Shown piece after piece: positions 3,017 to 21,091 of a stretch of DNA of 45,679 nucleotides. Under the pieces are notes generated by a model that worked only from the letters and a program-made list of their open reading frames with translations, was not told the DNA's origin and did no database searches. The stretch is from assembly GCA_021163295.1 (NCBI GenBank), contig JAGGXD010000070.1:1-45679 (forward strand). Reading direction: 5' to 3'. The position numbers were made by a program, and so were the translations under genes. This DNA is from Bacteroidales bacterium (GTDB taxonomy: Bacteria > Bacteroidota > Bacteroidia > Bacteroidales > VadinHA17). Numbering within the stretch: position 1 is the first letter of the stretch; each line of letters begins with the position of its first letter.

Positions 3017-4114
3017 ATGAAAATGAAAAAGAGTATTCTTTATTTAATGCTAATAATAAGCTTTGGGTGTACTACAAATCATTCATCTGATTGGGATTTT
3101 CAACCTTTTTATAAACCGGCCGAAAACCCGATTGTTAAAGCTGATTCAACTTTAACTTTTGTTTGTCCTGTAAAAAATGAAGTAGTTCAATGGCAGAAAG
3201 CAGATGTCTTTAACCCGGCTGCCATTATAAAAGACAACAAAGTATATTTATTACTTCGTTGTGAAGATAATCCAAAAGCTATTCTTGGTGGACGAACTTC
3301 CAGAATTGGTTTGGCTTCCAGCGAAGATGGTATCCATTTCACAAAATATCCTACACCTGTTTTGTATCCCGACAGCAGTGACTTTTTACAATACGATTAT
3401 CCCGGTGGTTGTGAGGATCCAAGGGTTGTTGAAACACATGACGGCTTATATGTTATGGCTTATACGTCATGGAATCAGGATGTTGCCAGATTAAGCATTG
3501 CGTTTTCAAAAGATCTGTTACACTGGGAGAAGAAAGGACCGGCATTTACAAAGGCTTATGATGGTAAATTTTTAAATTATTGGTCTAAATCCGGATCCAT
3601 TATTACAAAAATGGATGGAGACCGGCAGATTGTTGCAAAAATTGATGGGAAATACTGGATGTACTGGGGTGAAAAATTTATCAACCTTGCATGGTCAGAG
3701 AATTTATTTGACTGGTATCCGTCATTAGATGAAAGGGAAGAACTTAAAGCTGTTGTTAAGCCGCGAAAGAATAAATTTGACAGCCACCTTACTGAATGCG
3801 GGCCACCCGCGCTAATTATGGGTGATGGTATTGTCCTGTTCTATAATGGGAAAAATTCTGAAGCAGAAGACTCTGATCCTGACTTACCAAAGGGAACTTA
3901 TTCGGTGGGGATGGTGGTTTTTGATATAAACAATCCGGAGGAAGTCATTTACCGTTCCGATACATATTTATTAAAACCAACTCTTCCGCATGAAATGACC
4001 GGTCAATATAAATCAGGAACTACATTTGCAGAAGGTCTGGTATATTTTAAATCGAAATGGTTTCTGTATTATGGAACAGCAGATTCATTTGTTGGTGTAG
4101 CGATTTCAGAATAA
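3017..4114 (+). CDS. GH130-like glycoside phosphorylase/hydrolase, lipoprotein
   Basis: 365 residues with a lipoprotein signal (ILYLMLIISFGC, Cys at residue 18). The body is a five-bladed-propeller-type sequence with GH130 hallmarks: FNPAAIIKDNKVYLLLRCED, RIGLASSEDGIHF, GCEDPRVVE near residues 131-139, and DGKYWMYWGE near residues 210-219. GH130 enzymes cleave or phosphorolyse beta-linked mannosides; exported members in Bacteroidota include beta-1,2-mannosidases. The lipid anchor argues for a periplasmic or surface role. The gene converges on the ASPIC/VCBS operon with only 7 bp between stop codons. Substrate is inferred from family only; a GH43/GH32-like propeller fold is the alternative reading. 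Start could also be the ATG at 3023. Confidence 0.82.
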   Translation: MKMKKSILYLMLIISFGCTTNHSSDWDFQPFYKPAENPIVKADSTLTFVCPVKNEVVQWQKADVFNPAAIIKDNKVYLLLRCEDNPKAILGGRTSRIGLASSEDGIHFTKYPTPVLYPDSSDFLQYDYPGGCEDPRVVETHDGLYVMAYTSWNQDVARLSIAFSKDLLHWEKKGPAFTKAYDGKFLNYWSKSGSIITKMDGDRQIVAKIDGKYWMYWGEKFINLAWSENLFDWYPSLDEREELKAVVKPRKNKFDSHLTECGPPALIMGDGIVLFYNGKNSEAEDSDPDLPKGTYSVGMVVFDINNPEEVIYRSDTYLLKPTLPHEMTGQYKSGTTFAEGLVYFKSKWFLYYGTADSFVGVAISE

Positions 4115-4121
4115 AATCGCT

Positions 4122-7100
4122 TTAATATTGGAATATTTGCAGATATCCGTTATTTATTGCAGTTACTAAAAAATGTTTTCCAAGTATCTCAATTGAGTGT
4201 ATCTTCCTTGCATCTCCGTTTATCCTGAGACCACTTTCCACCGGCATCAAAACGCTAAATTCATGACCGGTGTCACCTAATAAACACCAGCCATAGCTGG
4301 CATCATAACGACCGATAGACGGTCTGACTGAATAATTGTTACCGACAAGAACAAGATCATTTTTCCCATCAAGGTCAAAATCATGAACAACAATATCGCG
4401 AACAGGAGAAAACTGGGCTGTTTGGGGAAGTTTATTTATTTCAAATGTTCCATCTCCATTATTCAGGAACAGACAACTTTCAAAAAGCACTGCTCTTCTA
4501 ATGATTGATTGATCCAATTTTTCCTTTCCAAATATATCCTTTGCAGTCTTTCCTCCAAAATCAGAATAATTGGGATACTTCTTTTTTAAGCCGGGCATCT
4601 GACCAGCCAGCTCGTCCAAAGAGGCTATGGGATAGCTTATGCCGTTAGAATAGGAACAGATCACCTGGTCCAGCGAACCATTATTATCAAAATCATTCAC
4701 AAACATTTCGACCGGTTCTTGTTTTGAAGCTTTCAGTAATGAATTAAGCCCTAAATTCCCACCAATTAAATCCAAATCTCCATCGTCGTCAACATCAGCA
4801 ACCTGTAAACAATTCCACCATCCTGATGTTTTATCCAGACCTGTTGAATCGGTTATATCAGTAAAATGCTCATCATCATTCCTGAACATACAAACTTTCA
4901 TCCATTCACCCACTAACACCAGATCCGGATCACCATCCTGATCATAATCCATCCATCTTGCGTCAGTCACCATGCCGGCATTTTTTAACCCTTTCATTCG
5001 AATATCTGTTACATCCTTAAATATGCCATTTCCATTGTTTTCAAGAAGAAACTGATCAGGTGACAATCCATAAGCACCCGGCACAGATCTCGAACCCACA
5101 AACAAATCCAGATCACCATCGCCATCAAAGTCAGCAGGCCGTACACAGGATCCATTACAGGCCATATAAGGCAGTGAACCTACAGACTTAAATCCTCCTT
5201 TTCCATCGTTTATAAGCAGCCTGTCAGTCAGTAACGGATCTTTTACAGGCACCTCATTGCCTCCCCGTACAATATACAGGTCAAGATCACCATCTCCGTC
5301 GGCATCAAATAAAGCTGCATCTACATCTTCGGTAAATCGGTCCTTTATAAATAGAGGGACATACAATGGACTGAAAGTTCCGTTAGATTGTTGTGTAAGC
5401 AACATGGCTGTTTGCTCTTTAGCCCCACCTACAAACATATCATCCAGCCCGTCACCATTTATATCACCAACAGCCAAAGCCGGTCCCTCTGCCGATAAAT
5501 TATGAGGTATCAGGTGCTCACGGTTTAAATCCGTATAAGCATCTTCTTTATGCCTGTATTCAAGTCCGGGGATCCGAAGCCTGGAAAACAATTTTTTATT
5601 ATCATTTTTTTGTTCATTTTTTGATACAGATTTCTCAGCCTTGTTCATTTCTAATGTTATAATCTGATCAACCGGCACATCATAAAGTATTTGTTCCGAC
5701 CGGTTGGGCCAACGCACGACAAGTGAATCGATCTTTTTTGTTTGCCCCAGTCCAAAATGTAACACATCAGAAGTGGCGGACATAAATCCCCTTGTAACAA
5801 ATTGCTCAGCGACAATTTCTTGATTTTTACAGAATAAAGTAACACGGGTTCCTACTGCTCGTGTGTTCAACCCTTGTCCTTTTAAAACAACGGATAAATA
5901 ATGATTGTTCAATAGAGTTGTGGCATTATTCCTGTAAATAAATGCCGGATCATTAATATTGTTGACAATAAGATCCAGATCACCATCATTATCGAGATCG
6001 GCATAAGTGGAACCATTGGAATAAGACCGGGTTTCAAAACCCCATGCTTTGGCCATATTCGAAAATGTAAGATCACGGTTGTTTTTAAAGATATAATTGA
6101 CATTTGGATACAATGGCATCTTCTCGTACAACACCTTATCCGGCACATCACTATTATCTTGAGTTGGAAAATATCTGTTTCCTCCTGTTAAAAATTTGAT
6201 ATAATCCAGATCATTAGCCCTGCGGTATATTCCATTTGTAATAAAAATATCTTTCCATCCGTCATTATCAACATCACAAAACAAGGGTGACCAACTCCAG
6301 TCAGTGGCGTAAATCCCTGCCAAACGCCCAATTTCACTAAACATACCCCCACCCAAATTTAGTTGGAGCGTATTTCGCACATACTGGTGATAATACCCGT
6401 AGTTTAACTTCAATTCAAAAAGTTCTTTTTCATCTTCACCTCCCGATTGTTTCAAAATATTTTCCTCATCCGGCAGCATATCCAAAACCATCACATCCAA
6501 AAGACCATCATTGTTGAAATCTCCAACATCATTACCCATTGAGGATCGACTTGTATGTGCTAACATTTCCGTCAATCGCTCTGAGAAAGTGCCATTCCTG
6601 TTGTTGATATATAAATAATCATTTTCGTGGAAATCATTCGATATATAAATATCGGGAAAACCATCATTATTAATGTCACAGATATTTACACCTAAACCAT
6701 AACCAATCTGACTGCTGTATATGCCTGCCCGGCGGGTAATATCACGAAAAACACGTCCTCCTTCTACCTTATCATTTCTATACAATCTGTCACCGGCGCG
6801 TGCATCATTACCAAAGCGCAAAGCCGCACCACCATAACTACGGGAAGTATGCACCGAATGGTTTAACAGATACATATCAAGATCCCCATCCATATCATAG
6901 TCGAAAAAAGCTGCCTGTGTAGAAAATCCCTGGAAATCAAGTCCGTAGGCATGAGCCTCTTCTTTAAATGTCAGATCACCCTGATTAATGAATAGTTGGT
7001 TTCTACCATAAAGACCCTTGTAATTTCCAACCTGACAAACATAAATATCCAAGAATCCATCCCCATTCACATCTGCCATTGTAACACCGGTCTTCCAGTT

Positions 7101-7436
7101 ACCCTTCCCTGCCACCCCGGCCCTATTTGTGATATCTTTAAATGCAAAATTTCCCTTGTTTAAGTATAATTTATTGGGTTTTTGATTAGAAGTGAAATAC
7201 AAGTCTGTCAGACCATCGTTATTGATGTCTCCTGCGGCAACTCCTGCACCGTTATTGAAGTAAAGATATTCAATGATATTAAATTGCTCGGTTTCTGTCA
7301 GTTTGTTTATAAAATTAACATGGGTGGAGGAAGGGGGTAACAACGAAAACAAATAATCACTTTCTTTTTCCTCAGGTTTACAGGAATAAACCAGTAAAGG
7401 CAGAAGTAAAAAATAAGTTGATTTTTTTAAAAACAT
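4122..7436 (-). CDS. ASPIC/UnbV and VCBS/FG-GAP double-propeller lipoprotein (copy 1)
   Basis: About 1,104 residues. The start chosen, ATG at 7436, gives a compact lipoprotein signal (MFLKKSTYFLLLPLLVYSC). An ATG at 7454 is also possible. Extension to 7505 would translate a palindromic repeat and is rejected. I count 14 DxDxDG-type calcium loops: seven (DINNDGLTD through DLDNDGDLD) before a UnbV/ASPIC domain at about residues 512-592 (GTRVTLFCKN, FGLGQTKKIDSLVVRWPN), and seven after it (DINGDGLDD through DFDLDGKND). This resembles CRTAC1-like proteins and suggests two seven-bladed propellers. It is the most diverged and last-transcribed of three paralogues downstream of susCD. The role is unproven; surface glycan or ligand binding is an inference. 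Confidence 0.9.
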   Translation of the reverse strand: MFLKKSTYFLLLPLLVYSCKPEEKESDYLFSLLPPSSTHVNFINKLTETEQFNIIEYLYFNNGAGVAAGDINNDGLTDLYFTSNQKPNKLYLNKGNFAFKDITNRAGVAGKGNWKTGVTMADVNGDGFLDIYVCQVGNYKGLYGRNQLFINQGDLTFKEEAHAYGLDFQGFSTQAAFFDYDMDGDLDMYLLNHSVHTSRSYGGAALRFGNDARAGDRLYRNDKVEGGRVFRDITRRAGIYSSQIGYGLGVNICDINNDGFPDIYISNDFHENDYLYINNRNGTFSERLTEMLAHTSRSSMGNDVGDFNNDGLLDVMVLDMLPDEENILKQSGGEDEKELFELKLNYGYYHQYVRNTLQLNLGGGMFSEIGRLAGIYATDWSWSPLFCDVDNDGWKDIFITNGIYRRANDLDYIKFLTGGNRYFPTQDNSDVPDKVLYEKMPLYPNVNYIFKNNRDLTFSNMAKAWGFETRSYSNGSTYADLDNDGDLDLIVNNINDPAFIYRNNATTLLNNHYLSVVLKGQGLNTRAVGTRVTLFCKNQEIVAEQFVTRGFMSATSDVLHFGLGQTKKIDSLVVRWPNRSEQILYDVPVDQIITLEMNKAEKSVSKNEQKNDNKKLFSRLRIPGLEYRHKEDAYTDLNREHLIPHNLSAEGPALAVGDINGDGLDDMFVGGAKEQTAMLLTQQSNGTFSPLYVPLFIKDRFTEDVDAALFDADGDGDLDLYIVRGGNEVPVKDPLLTDRLLINDGKGGFKSVGSLPYMACNGSCVRPADFDGDGDLDLFVGSRSVPGAYGLSPDQFLLENNGNGIFKDVTDIRMKGLKNAGMVTDARWMDYDQDGDPDLVLVGEWMKVCMFRNDDEHFTDITDSTGLDKTSGWWNCLQVADVDDDGDLDLIGGNLGLNSLLKASKQEPVEMFVNDFDNNGSLDQVICSYSNGISYPIASLDELAGQMPGLKKKYPNYSDFGGKTAKDIFGKEKLDQSIIRRAVLFESCLFLNNGDGTFEINKLPQTAQFSPVRDIVVHDFDLDGKNDLVLVGNNYSVRPSIGRYDASYGWCLLGDTGHEFSVLMPVESGLRINGDARKIHSIEILGKHFLVTAINNGYLQIFQY

Positions 7437-7443
7437 AAATCTA

Positions 7444-7522
7444 TATTTCCTCATTTCCTCATCACCCTTCGTCCGCCGTAGCCTTGGCGAAGGCGGATCA
7501 TTCACTCATCACCTCATTCACC
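7444..7522. repeat. REP-like palindrome flanked by CATCACCT-type octamers
   Basis: The core TCCGCC (7472-7477) pairs with GGCGGA (7492-7497), and an inner GCC-TT-GGC hairpin lies between them. On both sides are octamer runs: CATTTCCT and CATCACCC at 7452-7467, then CATTCACT, CATCACCT and CATTCACC at 7499-7522. It sits between two ASPIC genes and runs into the start region of copy 1 and the stop region of copy 2. I recognise the core as a dispersed palindrome type common in environmental genomes; copy number here is not visible. Confidence 0.6.
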
Positions 7523-10500
7523 GGCTTAATACTTTAAAAACCTGTACCGGATTATTGTTACGGGCGACCACCAATATTTTACCTGTTGAGGTTGTCACTT
7601 CTAATATATCCCTGATCTCTCCATCAAGATGAAATCCCGATAATTTCGATGGGATATTTTTAAAACCTCCCTGGCCATCACCCAACAAGAACGATCCGTA
7701 ACTGGCATCATAACGTCCTACTTCCGGTTTTACATTGTAAAAATTACCGCCAAGTAAAATGTCAATATTCCCATCACCGTTATAATCGCCAACCTCTGCT
7801 GCTAAAACCGTGGAAAATTGCACCTCAACCGGCAAAGATTTTCTGGTAAAATGCCCGGACCCATCATTAAAATACAGGGAGGTTTCCAATTCATATACAT
7901 CTAAATGAATAGAATTCTTCAACTGCTCAGCTGTAAAAATATCTGTAATCTGCTGACCTTTATACATTTCATATTTCGGGTACTTTTTTATCAACCCTGG
8001 CAATTGTCTGGTCAGATCATGTTTTAAGGCTAAAGGGTACGATGTATCACCTTCGAAGACACATATAATTTGATCTGCTGTACCATTCAAATCAAAATCG
8101 TTAACATACATACTTACCGGTTTTTCAGGTGTTGCCCGAAATCTTGAATTTAAACCATGATTTCCGGCTACAAAATCAATATCTCCATCAGAATCAAAAT
8201 CGCCGGATGCAAGGCAATTCCACCACCCGTCTGTTTTATCATGAGCAAAAGCTTCCTTTTCTTCTTTAAATATGCCATCCTCATTAATAAAAACTTTTAA
8301 TGGCATCCATTCTCCTGCCAAGATTATATCTTTAGCTCCATCCCCATTTACATCTTCCCACAACATATCACGGATCATGCCAATATCTATAAGCTCCGGG
8401 GCAATTTGTGCAGTTACATTTGTGAAATTTCCTTCCCCGTCATTCTCCAATATATAGCTATTTACCGGCACACCGTATAAAAACGGCTTAAGGCGCAGAC
8501 CTACAAATAGTTCTATTACTCCATCGTGATCAAAATCCTCAGCCCGGACACATGAGGTACTCTCATACTTGCCCGTAGGTAATACTTGCGATGATTTGAC
8601 AAAATGCCCTGTGCCATCATTAATATACAAGCGATCGCTCAAAGCTGATGAACTTGATGGAAACTCATTACCTCCACTGGCAACATATAAATCCAAATCT
8701 CCATCCTGATCCGCATCAAACATAGCGCAATCGGTATCCTCTGATATTTTATCTGTTTCAAACAATGTTTTGTTAACCGGCATAAATGCCCCATTCGTGC
8801 GTTGTATCAGTAAAGCTCCCGGTTGTCCTTTTGCACCACAAACGTAAATATCATCCAGTCTATCTCCATTAATATCACCTTTGCACATACGCGGTCCTTC
8901 GGTTGACATCATGTTATAAATTAAACGTTCCCGTTTAAAATCATCAAAATCATTCTCCCTATGGATGAAATTTATTTTACTATTTGAACTTATATCTTCA
9001 AAATAATTATTTTCAGAGCTTAAAGAATCTACCATATGCAGTGACATTGTAAGGGCTTCTTTCTGATAAAAAGTTAAAATCTGATCTGTTTGAACATCTG
9101 TTTTAACTGTAATACGGTCATCCGGCCATTCAATGATAAGGGAATCCACCATGGTTAATGGGCCCAATCCCAGATTAGGGCGGAAATCAACAGTCGATTT
9201 AAATCCGCGCATCGGCATTTGTTCCAGGTATACAAAATTACCTTTATGTTTGACTGTCACTTTAGCACCAATAGCATCTGTGTTTCCGGGGTCACCCTTT
9301 AAAATTACTTTCAGATAGTGATTGTCCGGTAATTGTTCATTGGTTTCATTGCGGTAAATAAACACAGGCATATTCACATTGTTAACCACAATATCCAGAT
9401 CACCGTCATTATCCAGATCACCGTAAGCAGATCCATTAGAAAAACTTGGTGTATCGAGACCCCAGGAAGCGGCCATATTTTGAAATCTGTAGCCCCCCAT
9501 ATTTTTAAAGGCATAACTGGGGATCTTAACCGAGGGAATAGCATCAATCAGGGTTTTATAATCCACATTATTACCTGACACAATAGTCCTGACCATATCC
9601 CGGTTTGAAAAATACTGAATATAATCCTGATCGGTCAGGTCCTTATAAATGCCATTTGCCACAAAAATATCTTTTAAACCATCATTATCCAGATCCATAA
9701 TCAATGCACCCCACGACCAGTCGGTGGCATATAAACCACTCAGTCTGCCAATTTCACTGAAAGTGCCGTCGGCGTTATTTAATTGCAACATATTGCGTGT
9801 AAACTGTTGGTGGTAACCATTATCAATATTCGATTTGTAACCCTCCCAGTTATCAAATGTCGTTTTTGTTTTTAAGCGCTCGTCATACTCGGGGATCATA
9901 TCGGTAGCAAATATTTCCGGATAGTGATCGTTATTGATATCTGCCATATCAGCTCCCATGGAAGCTGCAGAAATACATGGCATCATATCTGTCAGTGTTT
10001 CCTTAAATGTTCCATTTTGGTTATTGATGTAAATGTAATCTCTTTCAAAAAAATCATTCGACACATATATATCCATCCAGCCATCCTGGTCAATATCCCC
10101 GACTGTAACGCCCAATCCAAATCCAATCACGCTACCATAAATACCTGCTTCAGCGCTAACATCTGTAAATTGATTACCATCGTTCCTGAACAACTTATCC
10201 CCACCGATAGAATCCCGGATAAAACGCTGATTTTCCTGAAGATTGAAACTGCCAATGGCTCTGAAAGAATTATTCAACAAATACAAGTCAAGATCACCAT
10301 CCTTGTCGTAATCAAAGAATGCTGCGTGTGTAGAATAACCCAAATCATTTATGCCATAATCTTCTGCCTTTTCCGAAAATGTAAGATCACCGTTATTAAT
10401 ATACAATTCATTGTGTCGTTCATCACTTTCTACATTTCCCGAGTTACATACATATATATCCGTCCATCCGTCTCCGTTTACATCGGCAAAGCTTACACCT

Positions 10501-10871
10501 GTTGACCATTGTCCCTTACCGGCAATACCTGCCCGGTCTGATATATCTTCAAATTCAAAATTTCCTTTATTCAAATACAACACATTATGCTCCATATTGG
10601 AGGTTAAAAAAATATCAATGAGACCGTCATTATTTACATCCCCAAAGGCAACACCACCGCCATTGTAAAAATTTCGGTATGTATATATATTGAATTTCTT
10701 CTTAAGTTGCTCATCGTAATCAAGATGATTGACAAAATCAGCATGTGTAACAGAAGCAGGCAATAGTGTAAATAAATGATTTCCGGATTGTTCCCCGGTA
10801 TGTTTATTACATGCATAAAAGAACAAGAGCATCAATAGCCCAATGAGTCTGAATAAAACACTATTCTTCAT
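7518..10871 (-). CDS. ASPIC/UnbV and VCBS/FG-GAP double-propeller lipoprotein (copy 2)
   Basis: 1,117 residues with a lipoprotein signal (LIGLLMLLFFYAC). It has the same architecture as copy 1. Seven DxDxDG loops (DVNNDGLID to DLDNDGDLD) precede the UnbV/ASPIC domain near residues 517-597 (GAKVTVKHKG, MRGFKSTVDFR, SLIIEWPDD). Seven more follow (DINGDRLDD, DADQDGDLD, DFDHDGVIE, DVNGDGAKD, DFDSDGDID, DFDLNGTAD, DYNGDGNID). It shares loop variants such as DINNDxYPE, DINGDRLDD and DFDLNG with copy 3, so copies 2 and 3 look like the more recent duplicates. Its start overlaps the stop of the upstream small lipoprotein gene by 11 nt, which points to coupled translation. Its ligand is unknown. Confidence 0.92.
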   Translation of the reverse strand: MKNSVLFRLIGLLMLLFFYACNKHTGEQSGNHLFTLLPASVTHADFVNHLDYDEQLKKKFNIYTYRNFYNGGGVAFGDVNNDGLIDIFLTSNMEHNVLYLNKGNFEFEDISDRAGIAGKGQWSTGVSFADVNGDGWTDIYVCNSGNVESDERHNELYINNGDLTFSEKAEDYGINDLGYSTHAAFFDYDKDGDLDLYLLNNSFRAIGSFNLQENQRFIRDSIGGDKLFRNDGNQFTDVSAEAGIYGSVIGFGLGVTVGDIDQDGWMDIYVSNDFFERDYIYINNQNGTFKETLTDMMPCISAASMGADMADINNDHYPEIFATDMIPEYDERLKTKTTFDNWEGYKSNIDNGYHQQFTRNMLQLNNADGTFSEIGRLSGLYATDWSWGALIMDLDNDGLKDIFVANGIYKDLTDQDYIQYFSNRDMVRTIVSGNNVDYKTLIDAIPSVKIPSYAFKNMGGYRFQNMAASWGLDTPSFSNGSAYGDLDNDGDLDIVVNNVNMPVFIYRNETNEQLPDNHYLKVILKGDPGNTDAIGAKVTVKHKGNFVYLEQMPMRGFKSTVDFRPNLGLGPLTMVDSLIIEWPDDRITVKTDVQTDQILTFYQKEALTMSLHMVDSLSSENNYFEDISSNSKINFIHRENDFDDFKRERLIYNMMSTEGPRMCKGDINGDRLDDIYVCGAKGQPGALLIQRTNGAFMPVNKTLFETDKISEDTDCAMFDADQDGDLDLYVASGGNEFPSSSSALSDRLYINDGTGHFVKSSQVLPTGKYESTSCVRAEDFDHDGVIELFVGLRLKPFLYGVPVNSYILENDGEGNFTNVTAQIAPELIDIGMIRDMLWEDVNGDGAKDIILAGEWMPLKVFINEDGIFKEEKEAFAHDKTDGWWNCLASGDFDSDGDIDFVAGNHGLNSRFRATPEKPVSMYVNDFDLNGTADQIICVFEGDTSYPLALKHDLTRQLPGLIKKYPKYEMYKGQQITDIFTAEQLKNSIHLDVYELETSLYFNDGSGHFTRKSLPVEVQFSTVLAAEVGDYNGDGNIDILLGGNFYNVKPEVGRYDASYGSFLLGDGQGGFKNIPSKLSGFHLDGEIRDILEVTTSTGKILVVARNNNPVQVFKVLSR

Positions 10872-11466
10872 TTATTATCCCCGCTTTTGAGGTTGAATCA
10901 ATTAATTCCTTTCTTACCGACATATCAGTAAAAACAGTCCACACATGCAATTCATCTTCCTTAAATATTGTGATACGCCGGTTCCCGTTGATCTTTGTGT
11001 AAGCCATACCGTGTTTAGAATGTTTCACTTTTATGAAACCTTCACCATAAATTTTCTCATACAATCTCAATACGTCTAATTCAAGATTATCGGAAGATAG
11101 CTCTTTATTCCACGGGGTCCATCCATTGTAAATAAACTGAACCGGCATTTCATAAATTTTGGCCTCTACGAATTCCGGATAATATTGCATGGTAGCCGGA
11201 TATTTCAATTCGTCTTTCAATTCATATTCAACCATCGTGTTATTCGAACTTTGTTTGATCAACCCTTCCCGGTTTAATATCCAACAATGCGTATAGAAAT
11301 CCTTTTCAGGCATCCCGAGATATAACCCCATAAATAGAGAATCATGTCTCACTCCACTTGCCAACTCCTGGTTCAACATGCGATCATATTTTGATCTTGG
11401 TGAACATCCGTAAATTAATAATCCGGCAATTAAAACCGGCATGACCCATACAATCTTTATCTTCAT
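10861..11466 (-). CDS. Small lipoprotein embedded between ASPIC/VCBS genes
   Basis: About 201 residues with a lipoprotein signal (MKIKIVWVMPVLIAGLLIYGC). The mature part is soluble, with a recognisable block at ELASGVRHDSLFMGLYLGMP followed by KDFYTHCWILNREG. I cannot name a family, but such proteins are frequent companions of ASPIC/VCBS genes in Bacteroidota as far as I recall. The ATG at 11466 is preferred over a TTG at 11475 because it gives the canonical signal. The gene starts 10 nt after the stop of copy 3 and overlaps the start of copy 2 by 11 nt, so its product is probably made in step with the two large lipoproteins and may partner with them. Confidence 0.8.
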   Translation of the reverse strand: MKIKIVWVMPVLIAGLLIYGCSPRSKYDRMLNQELASGVRHDSLFMGLYLGMPEKDFYTHCWILNREGLIKQSSNNTMVEYELKDELKYPATMQYYPEFVEAKIYEMPVQFIYNGWTPWNKELSSDNLELDVLRLYEKIYGEGFIKVKHSKHGMAYTKINGNRRITIFKEDELHVWTVFTDMSVRKELIDSTSKAGIINEE

Positions 11467-11475
11467 AATTTTCAA

Positions 11476-14400
11476 TTAATATTTATAAAACTCTAATTTA
11501 TCATTGTTTCTTACAACTGCAATTATACGGCTTCCAAAGATATTCAAAATCTGCAAATCACGTATCTCCCCTTTGGTAAAAAACCCCGATATTGCAGAAG
11601 GAACAACATCTAATACTCCGTCGGTATTCCCCTTTAAATAAAGACCATAACCCGCATTATAAATTCCTGTTTCCGGTTTGGCTCTATACTGGTTTCCTCC
11701 GACGATAATATCACATATTCCATCATCATCGAAATCATCAGCGGCAATAGCGTAAACCGGTGAGAACTGGGCTTCTACAGGAAGGGAAATCAGGTGAAAA
11801 GCCCCCAAACCGGTATTGATCAACACACAACTCTCCATGACCCGGGCATTTAATTTAACTGCCCGCTGCAACACTTCATCGGGAAAAATATCTTCAATAG
11901 TCTGCTCTTTATAATCCTCAAACCTTATATATTTATTTTCCAACGCAGGAATTTGCTTTATTAAATCATTCTTCATCACTACAGGATATGATTTATTTCC
12001 ATTGTAAGCACAGATTATCTGTTCAACGCTCCCATTCAAATCAAAATCATTCACGTACATAGTGACCGGCTGCTGTTCTGAAGCCTTAAAGCGCGAATTC
12101 AATCCATGATTACCCAATACAAAGTCAACATTTCCATCTCCGTTCAAATCTTTTTTTATAATTACATTCCACCAGCCTTCCGTATTCGATAAACCAAACC
12201 GTTCAGATTCGTCTGTAAAGTAACCATTGTTATTAATAAATATCTTTACCGGCATCCAGTCGCCCACTATTACTATGTCCGAATCCCCGTCATTATCCAC
12301 ATCAGCCCATGTCATATCAGTGATCATGCCTATTTCCGTTAAACCCGGTGCCTGTTTCCCGGATACATTTGAAAAATTGCCGTGTCCATCATTTTCCAAC
12401 ACGTAACCATTTACCGGAACACCATATAAAAAAGGAAACAAACGAATACCAATAAACAAGTCCATATCACCATCATTATCATAATCAGCAGGTTGTACAC
12501 ATGAACTGCTTTCATAGCGGGCTGTGGGCAGCATTTGCCGGGACTTTGAAAATTTTCCCTGTCCGTCATTAATATACATCCGGTCGAGTAATGCTGAAGA
12601 ACTTTGCGGGAATTCATTTCCCCCACTGGTTACATACAGGTCAGGATCTCCATCCCCATCCGCATCAAAAAACACACAATCGGTATCTTCCGATATTTTA
12701 TCCGCTTCAAACAATGCCATATTTGTTCTTTTGAAATGTGCCTGCTTACCTTGAACAAACAAGGCTCCCGGATAACCTTTTGCACCACAAATATATACAT
12801 CATCCAGCCGATCGCCGTTTATGTCGCCAACAGCCATATGGGGACCTTCATTTGATAACATCTGGAATAACAACCTGTCGCGTCTAAAATCCACAAAATC
12901 GTTCTCTATATGTGTAAATTCAAGACCTTTGATCTGTCCCATTTTTTGGAAAACAGGCGATGGTTGTTTCTCAGGAATATTTATACATCTGTTAATTGTT
13001 TCTTTATGATCCAATAATAAAAATTGATTTACTGCTACATTCTCCAAAACAGAACATTTTCCATCAGGCCAGTTCACCACCAAAGAATCGATAGTCTGTG
13101 ATGCCCCGAGTCCAAAATGAAGCCGGTTATCGACACAAGATTTAAAACCACGCATGGGCACAAGTTCCTGATAATTTATTTTTCCGCCGTAGTAAAGTGT
13201 AACCCCGGCTCCAATAGCAGCACTGTTTTCTCCGGCACCTATCAATCTGAGCATAAGAAAATTTGTTCCCGGCTTCCCACGTGTTTCGTTCCTATAAACA
13301 AAAGCGGGCATATTCACATTGTTTACAACCAGATCCAGGTCGCCATCGTTATCAAGATCACCATAGGCAGCACCATTTGAATGTGAGGGTGTACCGAGAC
13401 CCCACAGTCCGGATAAGTTTGTAAATGTGAGATCTTCGTTATTATGAAAAGCATAATTAGGAATCCTGACTGATGGAATTTTATCGATTATTTTTAGAAT
13501 GGCATTTTCCTCACTCTTAATAATAGATCGCATTGCGGAAGGATTTGAATAGAAATCAAGATAGTCACGATCCAGCAAATCTTTGAAAATGCCGTTAGCC
13601 ACGAAAATATCTTTCCATCCGTCATTGTCCAGATCCATAATTAATGCTCCCCAGCTCCAATCAGTGGCACTCACACCGCTCAGTCTTCCTATTTCACTGA
13701 AAGAGCCATTTTGGTTATTCAACTGAAGGACATTCCTGCCGAATTGATGATGGTAGCCATTGGTCAATTTCTTTTGGTATCTGTCCCAGCTTTCAAATAA
13801 TACTTTTGTTTTCAGCCGTGCATTACCCTCAGCTGTCATCTCTGTCGCAAAGATCTCCGGGTAGGCATCGTTGTTGATATCTGCCATATCCGACCCCATT
13901 GCCCCTAAACTAATTTCACCCAATTGGTCCTCAAGCGATTCTGTAAATGTACCGTCTCTATTATTGATATAGAGGTAGTCGCGTTCAAAAAAATCATTCG
14001 ATACATAAATATCCATCCATCCGTCGCGGTTTACATCACCTACACTCACGCCGAGGCCAAAGCCAATCTTACTTCCATATATACCAGCTTCCTCACTGAC
14101 ATCCTCAAAATATCCACCTTCATTCCGGTACAATTTATTTGCTCCCAGGGTATCACGTATTTGCCGTTGCCCGGGTTTTATATCAAATTCAGTTACCGAT
14201 TGAAAGGAATTGTTCAGGAGATAACAATCCAGATCCCCATCCCGGTCATAATCAAAAAACGATGCATGGGTTGACAATCCGAGATCTGCAATCCCATATT
14301 CAGCAGCTTTTTCTGAAAAGGTCAAATCTCCGTTATTTATAAACAATTCATTGTGACGATTGGTGCCGCCCGGATCTCCCGATTTGCAAACGTAAATATC

Positions 14401-14808
14401 CAGCCACCCGTCACCATTAATATCTGCAATACTTACACCTGTTGACCATACATCCGGACAAGCCACTCCAGCCTGTTCCGTAACATCCTCAAAGACAAAA
14501 TTGCCCTTGTTGATATAAAGTTTATTATCTGCAATGTTACCGCAGAAATATATATCGGGCAAACCATCATTGTTAAAATCGCCCAGTCCTACACCTGCGC
14601 CGTTATAAAAATTCCTGTATGTATAGGTATTATATTCTTCAGTATATTCTACATGGTTTAAAAAACCAATATGGGTTTTTTCTTTGCCAAGAAGCGAAAA
14701 CGAAGGAGTCTGAACAATATCAGACTCTCCTGTTTTGCAAGAATTCACAAAAAAGGGCATCAATAGCATTATGCCAATTGATAAGCCCTTAAAGCTTTTA
14801 TAATCCAT
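11476..14808 (-). CDS. ASPIC/UnbV and VCBS/FG-GAP double-propeller lipoprotein (copy 3)
   Basis: 1,110 residues with a lipoprotein signal (LSIGIMLLMPFFVNSC). Seven DxDxDG loops (DFNNDGLPD, DINGDGWLD, DYDRDGDLD, DVNRDGWMD, DINNDAYPE, DLDNDGWKD, DLDNDGDLD) lie before the UnbV/ASPIC domain near residues 514-598 (GAGVTLYYGGK, MRGFKSCVDNR, SLVVNWPDG). Seven lie after it (DINGDRLDD through DFDDDGICD). This is the first ASPIC gene after susCD and is separated from susD by a strong hairpin. Anchoring in the outer membrane next to SusCD is expected from the lipobox and context. Whether it binds substrate or assembles a complex is not shown by the sequence. Confidence 0.92.
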   Translation of the reverse strand: MDYKSFKGLSIGIMLLMPFFVNSCKTGESDIVQTPSFSLLGKEKTHIGFLNHVEYTEEYNTYTYRNFYNGAGVGLGDFNNDGLPDIYFCGNIADNKLYINKGNFVFEDVTEQAGVACPDVWSTGVSIADINGDGWLDIYVCKSGDPGGTNRHNELFINNGDLTFSEKAAEYGIADLGLSTHASFFDYDRDGDLDCYLLNNSFQSVTEFDIKPGQRQIRDTLGANKLYRNEGGYFEDVSEEAGIYGSKIGFGLGVSVGDVNRDGWMDIYVSNDFFERDYLYINNRDGTFTESLEDQLGEISLGAMGSDMADINNDAYPEIFATEMTAEGNARLKTKVLFESWDRYQKKLTNGYHHQFGRNVLQLNNQNGSFSEIGRLSGVSATDWSWGALIMDLDNDGWKDIFVANGIFKDLLDRDYLDFYSNPSAMRSIIKSEENAILKIIDKIPSVRIPNYAFHNNEDLTFTNLSGLWGLGTPSHSNGAAYGDLDNDGDLDLVVNNVNMPAFVYRNETRGKPGTNFLMLRLIGAGENSAAIGAGVTLYYGGKINYQELVPMRGFKSCVDNRLHFGLGASQTIDSLVVNWPDGKCSVLENVAVNQFLLLDHKETINRCINIPEKQPSPVFQKMGQIKGLEFTHIENDFVDFRRDRLLFQMLSNEGPHMAVGDINGDRLDDVYICGAKGYPGALFVQGKQAHFKRTNMALFEADKISEDTDCVFFDADGDGDPDLYVTSGGNEFPQSSSALLDRMYINDGQGKFSKSRQMLPTARYESSSCVQPADYDNDGDMDLFIGIRLFPFLYGVPVNGYVLENDGHGNFSNVSGKQAPGLTEIGMITDMTWADVDNDGDSDIVIVGDWMPVKIFINNNGYFTDESERFGLSNTEGWWNVIIKKDLNGDGNVDFVLGNHGLNSRFKASEQQPVTMYVNDFDLNGSVEQIICAYNGNKSYPVVMKNDLIKQIPALENKYIRFEDYKEQTIEDIFPDEVLQRAVKLNARVMESCVLINTGLGAFHLISLPVEAQFSPVYAIAADDFDDDGICDIIVGGNQYRAKPETGIYNAGYGLYLKGNTDGVLDVVPSAISGFFTKGEIRDLQILNIFGSRIIAVVRNNDKLEFYKY

Positions 14809-14920: not shown

Positions 14921-16582
14921 TTATTTAGAGTAACCCGGGTTTTGAGTCAGATTAGGATTAGCATCCAGTTTATCTCTGTGTACGGGGAACAGAGTTGTAT
15001 GTGCACCTGTTTCCATTACATCAAGAGGATTGTTAAATGGAAGAATCCATTTATCAACGTCAGTAAAGAATCCCCAACGTATCAAATCCTGCCGTCTGTG
15101 GTTCTCTGCGAACATCTCACGACCTATTTCATTGAATAATTCTCCACCGTCAACATCCCCGGCTGCCATATCAAAACTCAACGGACCATCTAAAGTAGTC
15201 AGATCTGCAACACCGGCGCGGCTTCTGATTTGGTTTACCAGTATCAATGCCCCGGCTTCATCACCGGTGCGCCAAAGAGCTTCCGCTTTCATCAACAGTA
15301 CATCGGCATAACGGAATATAGCATAATCATTGCTCATATTGTCCCTGCTTCCTATGCCAAATTCCCATTTACCTATTCTAATACCGTCCTGACGAAGTGC
15401 CTGGGGACCCAATTCCTGGATCTGTGGTAGTGCTGTACCCATATTCCCAAAATTAAGAGGTGCCCCTTCAGGGTCTGTAGCCTCATATCCATCATCCATC
15501 ACATAACCTCCACCAAGGTTGTATTGATAGCCTGCAATAAAATTGCCACGTTTCGATGCCTTGGCATCGGCTGTACCTACATCACCCTTTCGCAAATCTG
15601 TGTCATCATAAGAGTTATAAAACTCCTCCAGTGTACAGAAACCATTCCACGGTTGGGCGGTAAGGTCATATGTGTACTGACTGCCATAGTGTAATGTCCG
15701 CATAACAAGATTGAATCCCTGGAAGAATACCTCGTCGTAAGGAATAGCAAAAATAAATTCGCTGGATCCGGAATTGTCAACATTGAAGTTGGAAAAATAA
15801 TTGGCTTCCAGGCTATACTTACCGGAATTGATCACTGCATCACAAGCCGTAATCACCTTGCTCCACTGTGCTGTGCCGGAGTAAACTTCTGCATTCAGGT
15901 AAAGTTTTGCCAGCAAAGTCTGTCCCGCGTAATAATTCATACGGCCATAAGTGGAGCCGTCAACAGATGTTGATAACTTAGAAGCAGCTGTTTCCAAATC
16001 GGCAACGAGAAAATCGTACACATCTTTTCTTGGTACTGTTGACGGGGCAGCTTCTGCGGTGGCAAAATCGGTAACCAATGGAACGTTGCCAAACATATCA
16101 ATTAATTGCCAGTAAAAGAAACCACGTACCGCCTTGAGTTCTGCTATAAAAGCATCAGCGGCTGACTGCTCTACCTGTCCACTTTCCACTAAAGTTTCAA
16201 ACTGATTTATAAGCCGGTTGGCGGTATTTACACCGCTAAAACCAAAATTCCAGCCTCCACCCATTGCACCATCTTCATACGTCCAGGAATGTAAAGTCAT
16301 TCTTCTCCATGCACCGCCATCATCCCAGTCCGATCCCCTGGTGGGTACCACCATTTCATCTGTGCTAACATCTTGTAAGGTAAGAGGATCACCTGAAGCC
16401 CAATTCCCGAACTGGGTATATGCACCACCTAATGCCGATATAAACTCTTCTTCCGTTTGGAAGAAATTGTCCGGTGTAACTTCACCATAAAGTTCTTCGT
16501 CCAGTTTAGTACATGACTGACTAAAAGCAGTCACGATAAACGCAATCATTATAACTCTAATAAGAAATACTGATTTTTTCAT
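14921..16582 (-). CDS. susD: SusD/RagB family outer-membrane lipoprotein
   Basis: About 553 residues from ATG 16582 with a lipoprotein signal (MKKSVFLIRVIMIAFIVTAF, then SQSC). Starts at 16606 and 16618 are also possible. SusD-type features are CTKLDEELYGEVTPDNFFQTEEEF after the lipid Cys, a TPR-rich N-terminal half (AELKAVRGFFYWQLIDMFGNVPLV, YYAGQTLLAKLYLNAEVY), and a C-terminal block with YADVLLMKAEALWRTGD, NQIRSRAG and IGREMFAENHRRQDLIRWG. SusD proteins sit as lids on SusC transporters at the cell surface and bind oligosaccharides. The gene follows susC directly and ends just before a strong hairpin. Substrate cannot be read from sequence. Confidence 0.95.
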   Translation of the reverse strand: MKKSVFLIRVIMIAFIVTAFSQSCTKLDEELYGEVTPDNFFQTEEEFISALGGAYTQFGNWASGDPLTLQDVSTDEMVVPTRGSDWDDGGAWRRMTLHSWTYEDGAMGGGWNFGFSGVNTANRLINQFETLVESGQVEQSAADAFIAELKAVRGFFYWQLIDMFGNVPLVTDFATAEAAPSTVPRKDVYDFLVADLETAASKLSTSVDGSTYGRMNYYAGQTLLAKLYLNAEVYSGTAQWSKVITACDAVINSGKYSLEANYFSNFNVDNSGSSEFIFAIPYDEVFFQGFNLVMRTLHYGSQYTYDLTAQPWNGFCTLEEFYNSYDDTDLRKGDVGTADAKASKRGNFIAGYQYNLGGGYVMDDGYEATDPEGAPLNFGNMGTALPQIQELGPQALRQDGIRIGKWEFGIGSRDNMSNDYAIFRYADVLLMKAEALWRTGDEAGALILVNQIRSRAGVADLTTLDGPLSFDMAAGDVDGGELFNEIGREMFAENHRRQDLIRWGFFTDVDKWILPFNNPLDVMETGAHTTLFPVHRDKLDANPNLTQNPGYSK

Positions 16583-16626
16583 TTTATTTATGTCTTTTGT
16601 TTTCATATTCTTATACATTTTCAGGA

Positions 16627-19620
16627 TTAAAAACCAATGTTTACACCAAAAGATACCGATCTGGTTCTAAACCATGTATTTCTCCTGTCGATACCAGGTA
16701 CGAGTGGGTTATTATGTGTTCCCTGATCTGTAGCATTATCTGCATATCTCGGGTTCGGATCCACACCGTCATAACCGGTAATGTAGAACAGGTTATTCCC
16801 AGAAAGATACACCCTGATATTTCTGAATCCCGAACTTTCAGGTAAATCAAAGTTATAGCCTAAACTCATGTTATCAAGAGAAACAAAAGAAGCATTTTCA
16901 ATATGATAACTGGATAAAACACCCGAAGAGTTGTTCAGAAGAGTACCTGACGAACTTCTCATATCCGTTGCCGTTTTTGGCAGGTTATAGGATGTAATCA
17001 TATTTGGCACTTCATAAAAAGCACGATAGGTATTATTGAGGTCATGCCCAAATACACCACGGAAGTAAACATTCAAATCCCAGTTTTTATAAGTAAAATT
17101 GTTGCCCAATCCAAATTGAAAATCAGGTAAACCGTTTCCAACTACCTGCCGGTCATCGGGATCAACAGTACCGTCCCCGTTGGTATCCAGAAGGATCAAA
17201 TTGCCGCCATCATCAATTTCAACGAATGTATGTGCATACAACTGACCGAACGGCTCACCTTCCTCTGCCTTTATCAATGGTACTTGATTTTGCCCGGGTG
17301 AACCCATGTTACCCAGATAGCGTACTCCATATTCTAAATCTGCACCATTAAAAGATCCGGATAGGGATACCAGTGTGTTCTCAAGACTGTAGGAAGATGT
17401 AAAGGATAAGCTATAAGAGAAATCTGTTTCCTCAACGGCATTATAGGTAAGGGCTAGTTCCAAACCGCTGCTTTTTATTTCCCCAAGATTCAACCATGCG
17501 TGATCATAAAGGTTGGGAGGAACCGGTACCTGGTATTCAAATAACAAATCAGTTGTTGTTCTTGTATAAAAGTCAAATGAACCAAACAACTTGGATTCTA
17601 AGAATGAATAATCAAATCCGATATCAAATTCACCTTTCTTTTCCCAGCGTAGATCTGAATTCGCGTTACTCACCGGTGTATAACCGGGAACAAACTCTCC
17701 GTTATAGAAGAAGTTGCCTCCGGGACCCAGGCGAAGCAATGACAGATAACTATCTGAGGGCTGATTTCCTGTTATACCATAATTAACCCGGAATTTGAGG
17801 TTGTCAATAAAACTGGCACCTATAAAATCGGCTAATTCAGCTCCGGCACCAACAGCCGGAAACAGACCCCAACGGTTATCTGCACCAAATCGCGACGAAC
17901 CTTCATATCTGGCACTGGCAGTCACAAACCACATGTCGCTGACATTTACATTGACACGTCCGAAAAATGCGATCAGTTTGTTTGAGTTTTTATAACTTTC
18001 TACCTCGCCAAGCCCATTGTTAAAATCGAGGGCAGCTTCCAGGTTGTTGTATGTAAAAGCATCGGTAATAAAATCACCTCCCCTGGCGTGAAAACCTTCA
18101 TATATAAAATCCTGGTAAGAATAACCACCCAATACGTTGAGGTTCACCGAAGAAGTTATCTCCCCGTTCCATTTGGCAGTCGTTTCAAAAAGTTGATTAT
18201 ATGCATTATCCTGACGCCTTTCAGCCATACCGTTATTGTCCATTCCTGTCCAGTAACTGTTCTTGTCATAATACTGACCCCTTGTAAAATTTTCATTCTG
18301 AATTGAATAAAAAGCGTCAAGGATCAACCCGTCCATGATTTCATAAGCACCTTTTAATGAAAGATTCACACGCTTATCCGTCCCTTCATTAATATTTTGC
18401 TCCAGGATTTGAACAGGGTTATAATAATCGAATAAAACCTGGTTAAAATATCCGTCATAAATGTCATATGCCGCATCATCACTTCTTACAGGAGCTGTTG
18501 GATTGTAAATGGTGGCATAACGAAATGCATCTGTAAAACCGTATTGTGATTCCCTTTGAGTAGCACCCAGATTGAAATCCAAAGTAAGCCGGTCGTTCAA
18601 TGCCTTTTGTGTAAGATTAATCCTTGCGTTAAGCTGAGAGAATCCGGAATTAAGCATAATACCATCAGCATCACGATAGTTGAATGAAGCCCGGTAACTA
18701 GTCTTATCAGTTCCTCCTGACATGGCAAGATTGTGTACTTGTGATAAAGCGTTTTGTGTAATTTCCTTAAACCAGTCAGTATCTCCTCCAAAGTCAGTTC
18801 CCAAACCTGTTTCGGCTGACAATGCCCTCCATTCTGTTGCATTCATTACATTAGTTGTCTTTGCAACCATCTCAGAAGTAACATAACCGTTATAGTCGAT
18901 GTGGGCAGTGCCTTTTCGTCCTTTCTTAGTGGCTATAATAATTACACCACTCGAACCCCTTGTTCCATAAATAGCTGCAGCAGAACCATCCTTTAAAACG
19001 TCCATGGATTCAATGTCGTTTGGATCCACATTATCGAGAGACGCCCCGGGCACACCATCAATAACAAACAATGGCTGGGTATTGGCACCAATGGTGCTCA
19101 TACCCCTCAGGCGAATGTTATACCCTTCATTCGGGTCGCCACCGGCTTTACTTAAAGATAAACCGGCTACTTTACCCTGTATCAATTGTGCAGGATTGTT
19201 AACATAGCCCTGGTTGAACTCGTCAGATTTTACACTGGTAATAGAGCTTGTGGTTTCCTTTTTTTTCTGTGTACCATACCCGATAATAAGAATTTCATCC
19301 AGTGCAGTTACATCAGCGACCAGTACCACGTCGATAGTAGATTGACTGCCGACATTTACCGTTTGAGTAACGAAACCAATAGAAGAGAATACCAGAACTG
19401 CATCCGAACCGGGAACTACAAGACTGTAGTTACCGTCCATATCGGTCACGGTTCCCTGTGTGGTTCCCTGGATCACAATGTTAACCCCGGGAATTGCACC
19501 TTCTTCTTCAGAAGTAACATTACCTGTAATCGTTCTTTCCTGACCGAAAGCGAAACTAATCGCAAAGCCAAAGAGGAGAAGAGGCAATATGCCAATTTTC
19601 CGTAAGATAGAATTACGCAT
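16627..19620 (-). CDS. susC: SusC/RagA family TonB-dependent outer-membrane transporter
   Basis: 997 residues. A signal peptide (about residues 1-26, ending FAFG) is followed by a CarboxypepD_reg-like domain (RTITGNVTSEEEGAIPGVNI, about residues 29-112), the DEILIIGYGTQKKKETTSSI segment typical of SusC, and the plug (LFVIDGVPG, DIESMDVLKDGSAAAIYGTR, GVIIIATKKG). A 22-strand-type barrel follows and ends in aromatic GVNIGF. It imports oligosaccharides with TonB energy together with SusD. It is the first gene of the minus-strand operon. It lacks the extra N-terminal STN domain that would couple it to an anti-sigma factor, which fits control by the adjacent LacI regulator instead. Confidence 0.96.
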   Translation of the reverse strand: MRNSILRKIGILPLLLFGFAISFAFGQERTITGNVTSEEEGAIPGVNIVIQGTTQGTVTDMDGNYSLVVPGSDAVLVFSSIGFVTQTVNVGSQSTIDVVLVADVTALDEILIIGYGTQKKKETTSSITSVKSDEFNQGYVNNPAQLIQGKVAGLSLSKAGGDPNEGYNIRLRGMSTIGANTQPLFVIDGVPGASLDNVDPNDIESMDVLKDGSAAAIYGTRGSSGVIIIATKKGRKGTAHIDYNGYVTSEMVAKTTNVMNATEWRALSAETGLGTDFGGDTDWFKEITQNALSQVHNLAMSGGTDKTSYRASFNYRDADGIMLNSGFSQLNARINLTQKALNDRLTLDFNLGATQRESQYGFTDAFRYATIYNPTAPVRSDDAAYDIYDGYFNQVLFDYYNPVQILEQNINEGTDKRVNLSLKGAYEIMDGLILDAFYSIQNENFTRGQYYDKNSYWTGMDNNGMAERRQDNAYNQLFETTAKWNGEITSSVNLNVLGGYSYQDFIYEGFHARGGDFITDAFTYNNLEAALDFNNGLGEVESYKNSNKLIAFFGRVNVNVSDMWFVTASARYEGSSRFGADNRWGLFPAVGAGAELADFIGASFIDNLKFRVNYGITGNQPSDSYLSLLRLGPGGNFFYNGEFVPGYTPVSNANSDLRWEKKGEFDIGFDYSFLESKLFGSFDFYTRTTTDLLFEYQVPVPPNLYDHAWLNLGEIKSSGLELALTYNAVEETDFSYSLSFTSSYSLENTLVSLSGSFNGADLEYGVRYLGNMGSPGQNQVPLIKAEEGEPFGQLYAHTFVEIDDGGNLILLDTNGDGTVDPDDRQVVGNGLPDFQFGLGNNFTYKNWDLNVYFRGVFGHDLNNTYRAFYEVPNMITSYNLPKTATDMRSSSGTLLNNSSGVLSSYHIENASFVSLDNMSLGYNFDLPESSGFRNIRVYLSGNNLFYITGYDGVDPNPRYADNATDQGTHNNPLVPGIDRRNTWFRTRSVSFGVNIGF

Positions 19621-20045: not shown

Positions 20046-21062
20046 ATGACACAGGGCAGAGTTACTATAAAAGATATTGCCAGGGAGCTGAAAATTTCTC
20101 CATCCACCGTTTCAAGAGCTCTTAAAGATCACCCGGATATTAGTCGGGAAACTAAAAAGAAGGTGAAAGAACTTGCAGGGGAACTGAATTATATTCCTGA
20201 TCCTATCGCGTTAAGTTTGAAAAGCCGGAAAAGCAAAATTATTGGGGTTATAATCCCCGAGATCGTTCATTATTTCTTTTCTTCCGTGATAAGTGGCATT
20301 GAAGATATAGCGTATAGTTCGGGATATAATGTTATGTTTTGCCAATCTGGAGAAACCTGGGAACGGGAGGTGAAAAATGTAGAAACTATGTTATCAAGCA
20401 GGGTTGAGGGGATACTTGCTTCAGTTTCAAAAACAACAACAAACTTTGATCATTTCAGGAAAATATTAGAATCAGGCGTTCCGCTTGTTTTTTATGATAG
20501 AATATGTAAAGAGCTTGAAACCGACCGTGTGGTTGTAAATGATTACCGGGGCGCTTTCGATGCAACGGAACATCTGATCAATGTAGGATGCAGGAATATT
20601 ATTCATTTAGCCACTACCGACGATCTTGAAATTGGAAAAGAAAGGAAAAGGGGTTTTGTCGATGCTATATGTAAAAGTGGTAATAAAGTCAGGGAGGAAC
20701 AAATTCTGAAATGTGATACTATTGCTGATGCAAGAGATCTTATTCCAGGGCTTTTTTCGTTAGCTAATCCGCCTGATGGTATTTTCGCAGTGAATGATCT
20801 GACAGCTGCGGAAACCATGATCATTGCCAAAGAACATGGAATAAAGATACCGGAAGACCTTGCTATTGTGGGTTTTACTAACGGCCAAATTGCACAGTTA
20901 ACTGATCCTCGTCTCAGTTCAGTAGAACAATTTGGATATAATATAGGGCGCGAGGCAGTTAAGTTACTTATTAAACGGCTTGAAACAGTGCCGAACAATT
21001 ATCCGGTTGAAACAAAGATTATAAAAACGAAACTGATTGTTAAGGGTTCGTCAAGGAGATGA
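20046..21062 (+). CDS. LacI-family transcriptional regulator
   Basis: 338 residues. An N-terminal LacI helix-turn-helix lies at residues 6-26 (VTIKDIARELKISPSTVSRA), with the hinge at about residues 45-62 (IPDPIALSLKSRKSKIIGVI). A periplasmic-binding-protein-like effector domain follows (IIPEIVHYFFSSVISGIEDIA, MLSSRVEGILAS, PLVFYDRI, GFVDAI, PDGIFAVNDLTAA, IVGFTNGQIAQLTDPRLSSVEQFGY in part). LacI-type repressors release DNA on binding a sugar. The gene is divergent from susC and probably controls the susCD-ASPIC operon through the CAAACGTTTG palindrome. It is followed closely by the TIM-barrel gene on the same strand. Confidence 0.95.
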   Translation: MTQGRVTIKDIARELKISPSTVSRALKDHPDISRETKKKVKELAGELNYIPDPIALSLKSRKSKIIGVIIPEIVHYFFSSVISGIEDIAYSSGYNVMFCQSGETWEREVKNVETMLSSRVEGILASVSKTTTNFDHFRKILESGVPLVFYDRICKELETDRVVVNDYRGAFDATEHLINVGCRNIIHLATTDDLEIGKERKRGFVDAICKSGNKVREEQILKCDTIADARDLIPGLFSLANPPDGIFAVNDLTAAETMIIAKEHGIKIPEDLAIVGFTNGQIAQLTDPRLSSVEQFGYNIGREAVKLLIKRLETVPNNYPVETKIIKTKLIVKGSSRR

Positions 21063-21091
21063 GGTTAGTAATAATTAAAGTTTTAAATAAA

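Follow-up and report, generated by a model that had tools for sequence, protein, structure and literature searches.

Three double-propeller ASPIC lipoproteins encoded with a SusC–SusD transporter in a Bacteroidales genome

Three lipoproteins of about 1,100 residues, named here V1, V2 and V3 in the order of their transcription, are encoded in a 45,679-nucleotide stretch of DNA from a Bacteroidales bacterium of the VadinHA17 lineage (GenBank assembly GCA_021163295.1, contig JAGGXD010000070.1; this whole stretch is called the window). Each carries 14 calcium-type loops, seven before and seven after an UnbV/ASPIC domain, and the models of V1 and V3 show two complete propellers, the first of which forms a core with ASPIC like that of the human matrix protein CRTAC1. 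The V genes lie downstream in an operon whose first genes encode a SusC–SusD (SusCD) transporter. The original prediction, made from the letters of positions 4122–14808, had overlooked both this operon and a fourth lipoprotein gene (x) inside that interval. Taken together, the findings suggest that V1–V3 are probably outer-membrane accessory capture subunits of the operon's SusCD transporter, acting on small carbohydrates. The operon genes and the parts of V1 are as follows.

16627..19620, minus strand: operon gene 1, SusC/RagA TonB-dependent outer-membrane transporter (TIGR04056, E 5.5e-209; Plug and CarbopepD_reg_2)
14921..16618, minus strand: SusD-like lid lipoprotein (PF07980, E 9.9e-30; lipobox Cys36)
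11476..14808, minus strand: V1, first double-propeller ASPIC lipoprotein (1110 residues, 14 loops; AlphaFold2 model)
13279..14700, minus strand: V1 propeller 1, residues 37–510, seven blades with one calcium loop each (model, CRTAC1 match)
12994..13263, minus strand: V1 UnbV/ASPIC, predicted transthyretin (TTR)-like beta sandwich, residues 516–605 (PF07593 at residues 531–597; model)
11479..12963, minus strand: V1 propeller 2, residues 616–1110, seven blades by superposition, seven loops not distributed one per blade (LGI1 EPTP match)
12022..12048, minus strand: V1 loop 13, DFDLNGSVE, residues 921–929, 34 residues past loop 12 (motif)
10861..11475, minus strand: x, small lipoprotein of no known family between V1 and V2 (lipobox, conserved position)
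7518..10871, minus strand: V2, second double-propeller ASPIC lipoprotein (1117 residues, 14 loops; Pfam)
4122..7505, minus strand: V3, third double-propeller ASPIC lipoprotein (1127 residues, 14 loops; AlphaFold2 model)

From SusC to V3, the intergenic gaps are 8, 112, 0, −11 and 12 bp, and SusC-SusD-V1-x-V2-V3 was therefore taken as one operon. The listed start of V3 is a GTG, but Met18 at 7454 is more likely; for x, the ATG at 11466 is the likely start.

Loops, folds and blades of the V proteins

Scoring with the D/N-tolerant motif [DN]x[DN]x[DN]xxx[DE] gave exactly 14 matches in each of V1, V2 and V3, in the predicted arrangement of seven on either side of UnbV/ASPIC; shuffling the residues (2000 shuffles per protein) gave a mean of 0.8–1.0 matches and a maximum of 5. 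The description of all 14 as DxDxDG-type loops held for this tolerant motif only, since the strict form occurs just 7–8 times per protein. Spacing between successive loops was nearly identical in the three proteins, at 52, 57, 72–75, 52, 82 and 92 residues in the first set, 178–181 across ASPIC, and 53, 58–60, 61, 51, 34 and 104 in the second. Membership of the UnbV/ASPIC family (PF07593) was clear, with E values of 6e-20, 1e-15 and 9e-22 in coordinate order of the open reading frames and scores of 71, 58 and 77 bits, above the curated cut-off of 23.4; the lipobox Cys, in coordinate order, is residue 42, 21 and 24. The signature of calcium blades, Dx[DN]xDG with an acidic residue at the A-B turn of a blade, was recognised, every loop lying between two hairpin strands. 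The models carry no ions, and calcium binding by the loops is putative.

AlphaFold2 models of V1 and V3, for which 62 and 48 homologues were aligned, reached a mean predicted local distance difference test (pLDDT) score of 92.0 and 90.6 and a predicted template modelling (pTM) score of 0.91 and 0.90, respectively. Residues 34–611 of V1 superposed on crystalline CRTAC1 (9etn) over 460 residues at 2.3 Å (Z 38.7, 23% identity), and V3 did so at 2.5 Å (Z 37.7). By sequence, too, CRTAC1 was the top PDB match (E 1.5e-12 with a single sequence, 1.3e-28 with a profile), and we therefore consider propeller 1 plus ASPIC to be a CRTAC1-type core. Residues 616–1110 of V1 matched the propeller of LGI1 EPTP (Z 31.7), as did propeller 2 of V3 (Z 31.3), and the protein's two halves are homologous to each other (hhalign probability 99.9, E 6.7e-34). 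The proposal of two complete propellers per protein was thus borne out by high-confidence models for V1 and V3, and V2 has the same loop spacing. ASPIC had also been pictured as a bridge between two equal propellers; instead, the TTR-like domain belongs with propeller 1 in the CRTAC1-type core, to which propeller 2 is an addition. A Pfam scan of the V proteins found no EGF-like domain, and a second propeller follows ASPIC, so that they are not CRTAC1 proper.

It had further been expected that loop number would equal blade number. One-to-one correspondence was observed in propeller 1, where the blades are four-stranded, each holds one loop in its A-B hairpin, and blade 7 is completed by the N-terminal strand 37–40. 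Propeller 2 agreed in total only. Loops 8–11 and 14 each occupy the A-B hairpin of their own blade, but just 34 residues, with no C-D strand pair, separate loops 12 and 13; the closing blade of V1 propeller 2 (1081–1109 plus the N-terminal strand 621–623) carries no loop. In the model, one of loops 12 and 13 sits on a surplus hairpin, as only one hairpin can be the regular A-B pair in a seven-bladed ring. Counted by its strands alone, propeller 2 has eight A-B hairpins against seven C-D pairs, and an eight-bladed ring was accordingly considered; it was rejected because 320 of 330 residues of LGI1 EPTP, which is seven-bladed, fit at 2.5 Å with both ends reached, better than would be expected of eight blades. 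In LGI1 EPTP, the N-terminal strand joins three C-terminal strands in blade 7 (PMC5906670), and the strand order at closure is the same in propeller 2 (V1 621–623 with 1081–1109). Structural superposition of the models supports seven blades in both propellers.

Conservation and surroundings of the cassette

Homologues were sought among 84,980 species genomes, which gave 79 loci with 139 complete ASPIC proteins longer than 900 residues, three of them from the window; the search was seeded with V1 and is hence skewed to close relatives. Strict 7+7 was found in 103 of the 139, and each of the 14 loop positions kept the full motif in 125–139. Loops 14 and 9 were the least conserved, with losses mainly in V3; the loop 13 motif was kept in 137. 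A second sample, made of 40 loci across the phylum (one per genome, mostly the best ASPIC matches of a phylum search), had strict 7+7 in 38 of 64 proteins longer than 900 residues. On the strength of both surveys, 7+7 is the norm of the Bacteroidota family and not a peculiarity of the window, so the design described earlier as unusually regular is the usual one among its relatives. ASPIC was present in 97 of 198 evenly drawn Bacteroidota genomes, most of the proteins listed being of the type of about 1100 residues. The Chlorobiota and Pseudomonadota labels of L036 and L063 are those of metagenome-assembled genomes, which may be mis-binned, and were not used to judge spread beyond Bacteroidota.

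Shorter proteins, of about 560–590 residues, have seven loops and ASPIC with nothing after. The genome of the window encodes one of them, a single-propeller CRTAC1-like protein of 569 residues (L001, 2213–3922, minus strand), possibly a one-propeller form of this family. Similar proteins occur in L012, L017 and L018; in L001, L012 and L018 the gene is divergent from another SusCD-V cluster.

The order SusC-SusD-V1-x-V2-V3 was repeated in Bacteroidales, Cyclobacteriaceae, Flammeovirgaceae and Flavobacteriaceae, and in most loci of the phylum-wide sample the V gene was accompanied by SusC and/or SusD. Cultured environmental strains with the complete cassette include Maribacter polysaccharolyticus D37 (L031) and Cecembia rubra (L042). 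A lipobox, as expected of utilisome-type accessory lipoproteins, was recognised in 46/48 V1, 33/34 V2 and 22/24 V3 proteins, and in 33/35 x proteins. For x, no Pfam match was obtained and no PDB match worth keeping. Homologues of x were found in 34 other loci (for example L008, 13343–13969), usually between V1 and V2, with the conserved stretches GMxxKDFYxHCWxLN and DGNRRITIFK.

In a tree of the V proteins, a branch with support 99 had all 24 third-position genes on the same side, and 30 genes from the first position grouped as a pure clade (support 100). With midpoint rooting, the second-position genes were mostly the lineages from which the first-position clade arises; a few loci, such as L047, break the rule. 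As the tree groups the copies by position and not by genome, V1–V3 are old paralogues kept in order, and their duplications are older than the divergence of these families.

Three further genes near the operon in the window were examined:

20046..21062, plus strand: LacI-family regulator, divergent from SusC (PF00356, Peripla_BP_3)
21059..22021, plus strand: xylose-isomerase-like TIM barrel of the sugar isomerase/epimerase type, overlapping the end of the LacI gene (PF01261, E 2.5e-22)
3017..4114, plus strand: GH130-like glycoside phosphorylase or hydrolase, convergent with V3 (PF04041, E 2e-33)

The LacI-family gene, 425 bp from SusC, is likely to be the operon regulator. LacI genes occur in 11 related loci, often directly upstream of SusC; no convincing LacI operator was seen upstream of SusC in the window, and a clear G+C-containing palindrome was found in L006 only. 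The GH130-like family is also present in L010 and L017. The families met most often among 108 genes flanking the cassettes were PAP2 (12), LacI (9), MFS (7), 3-keto-disaccharide hydrolase (6), FGGY kinases (5), GFO/IDH/MocA (5), aquaglyceroporins (4) and trehalase (3), and their NCBIfam names included glycerol kinase, xylose isomerase and kojibiose hydrolase. The common theme is one of small carbohydrates and polyols, the compound varying with the lineage.

A PAP2-superfamily (vanadium haloperoxidase-like), lipoprotein-like gene was noted in 23 survey loci, in most cases directly behind the last V gene. It is common in Flavobacteriaceae and relatives (L037, 7926–9275; L026, 16515–17867) and is not found in the window; the motifs K-x6-RP and SRxxxxxH were present in 6/6 members checked. 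Elsewhere in the window, a PorZ-like type IX secretion protein (PF21544) is encoded at 33522–35822 on the minus strand, and the organism therefore likely has a type IX secretion system. Two class III adenylate/guanylate cyclase genes, both on the plus strand (32107–33513 and 36604–38508), flank the PorZ gene; an HD domain is present in one of them and a Y_Y_Y domain in the other.

Possible roles of the V proteins

The operon, its conserved order and its carbohydrate surroundings led us to favour a role of V1–V3 in SusCD-dependent uptake. Also in its favour, the pairwise distances of SusC, SusD, V1, x, V2 and V3 correlate at 0.65–0.93, with permutation maxima of 0.25–0.43, which shows joint inheritance, although the correlation is uncorrected for species phylogeny. 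Each V protein would be a rigid, calcium-stabilised body in which a CRTAC1-type propeller packs on the TTR-like ASPIC domain and is followed by a second propeller that shares its ancestry. Utilisomes and BtuG provide the analogy for propeller faces that may offer binding surfaces at the cell surface, from which oligosaccharides or glycosides, depending on the lineage, would be passed to the SusD lid and the SusC barrel for TonB-driven import. The fixed order of the three paralogues might reflect a separate place or partner for each of them in the assembly, of which x could be a further subunit. A more specific picture, which we put forward tentatively and hold to be somewhat doubtful, is a six-protein SusCD machine in which three position-fixed double propellers and x capture small glycosides, the propeller faces replacing conventional glycan-binding proteins and hydrolases.

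Several observations weigh against a role in uptake. SusD of the window continues after its lipid Cys as CTKLDEEL, an acidic, surface-export-like sequence, and the V proteins do not have this strongly acidic pattern (mean net charge −0.02, −0.21 and +0.68 versus −2.20 for SusD). Across loci, the V proteins are more conserved (median identity 0.43–0.51) than SusC (0.35) and SusD (0.34), the reverse of what is expected for substrate-specific receptors. The catabolic neighbours vary between lineages and could be there by chance, and the search turned up no data on binding, expression or complexes for any V protein.

The better conservation of the V proteins leaves room for a different role, that of calcium-dependent surface adhesins or matrix scaffolds which are co-transcribed with SusCD and stand outside transport. 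The nearest relatives of propeller 1 in structure and sequence, CRTAC1 and integrin alpha, belong to a type of propeller that often binds proteins or matrix, and some V loci were seen without SusCD (L053, L061, L082, L102 and L121 among them). Some of the loci without SusCD end at contig edges, however, and the tight SusCD operon in most loci, the joint inheritance and the LacI and sugar-gene context make such a role unlikely. Alternatively, propeller 2, or both propellers, might be a surface sugar enzyme resembling the calcium-loop propellers of aldos-2-ulose dehydratase and rhamnogalacturonan lyase. The propeller of aldos-2-ulose dehydratase can be superposed on propeller 2 of V1 and V3 with Z 28.8 and 28.7, several polar and aromatic positions of propeller 2 beyond the loops are highly conserved (H633, E635, E707, R789, W851, W880, Q952 and Q1014), and 3-keto-disaccharide hydrolase and oxidoreductase genes are among the neighbours. 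Yet many propellers that are not enzymes score at least as high, no match to a set of catalytic residues was found, and with a single His among the highly conserved positions no multi-His metal site is apparent; we regard an enzyme as improbable. Least credible, with very little in its favour, is that the three V genes are recent, redundant dosage copies without division of labour. Their common architecture and the 45–56% identity between the window copies would fit this, but it is largely contradicted by the tree, which sorts the copies by position across families, and recent tandem copying was rejected on that ground.

With a part in SusCD-dependent uptake, what had been an unknown VCBS repeat protein would become a transporter subunit open to testing, in a common family for which the literature searched gave no tested function. 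The earlier statement that the family has no known function still holds experimentally, and the context now gives a strong lead to SusCD-dependent uptake. In addition, a human matrix protein, CRTAC1, is tied to relatives in a bacterial uptake setting.

Comparison with known systems

CRTAC1 (cartilage acidic protein 1) shares with the V proteins a calcium-loop propeller followed by an ASPIC/TTR-like domain. It differs in what comes next, a C-terminal EGF domain (PMC10477339), whereas the V proteins have a second propeller and are bacterial lipoproteins encoded in a SusCD operon. Propeller 2 resembles LGI1 EPTP in fold and closure; identity is 12%, and LGI1 EPTP has one calcium in its central channel and no loops at the blade tips. 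Blades with Dx[DN]xDG, including tandem calcium-blade propellers in a Nostoc protein, have been reported (PMC3123361), and neither the 7-ASPIC-7 plan nor the SusCD cassette is described in the passages of that report consulted here.

SusCD complexes with extra lipoproteins have been described (PMC7618045). Like the utilisomes of Bacteroides thetaiotaomicron, the V cassette combines a SusC–SusD operon, additional lipoproteins and a carbohydrate context; unlike them, it has three double propellers and the small lipoprotein x, in what would be a putative complex. BtuG, a surface lipoprotein made of a single seven-bladed propeller, forms a stable complex on the TonB-dependent BtuB and binds B12 (PMC10404256). 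The likeness, of seven-bladed propeller lipoproteins paired with a TonB-dependent transporter, is drawn as an analogy; BtuG has one propeller and B12 as its ligand, and the V proteins have two propellers.

A search of the literature for SusD together with FG-GAP, VCBS or UnbV, with most subscription papers outside its reach, returned no study of V-type proteins. Calcium-blade propellers, their tandem arrangement, the CRTAC1 fold and SusCD systems with extra lipoproteins are already known. What we did not find described, and what appears to be new, is the CRTAC1 core extended by a second propeller, its presence in three position-fixed copies, and the six-gene SusCD cassette that carries them.
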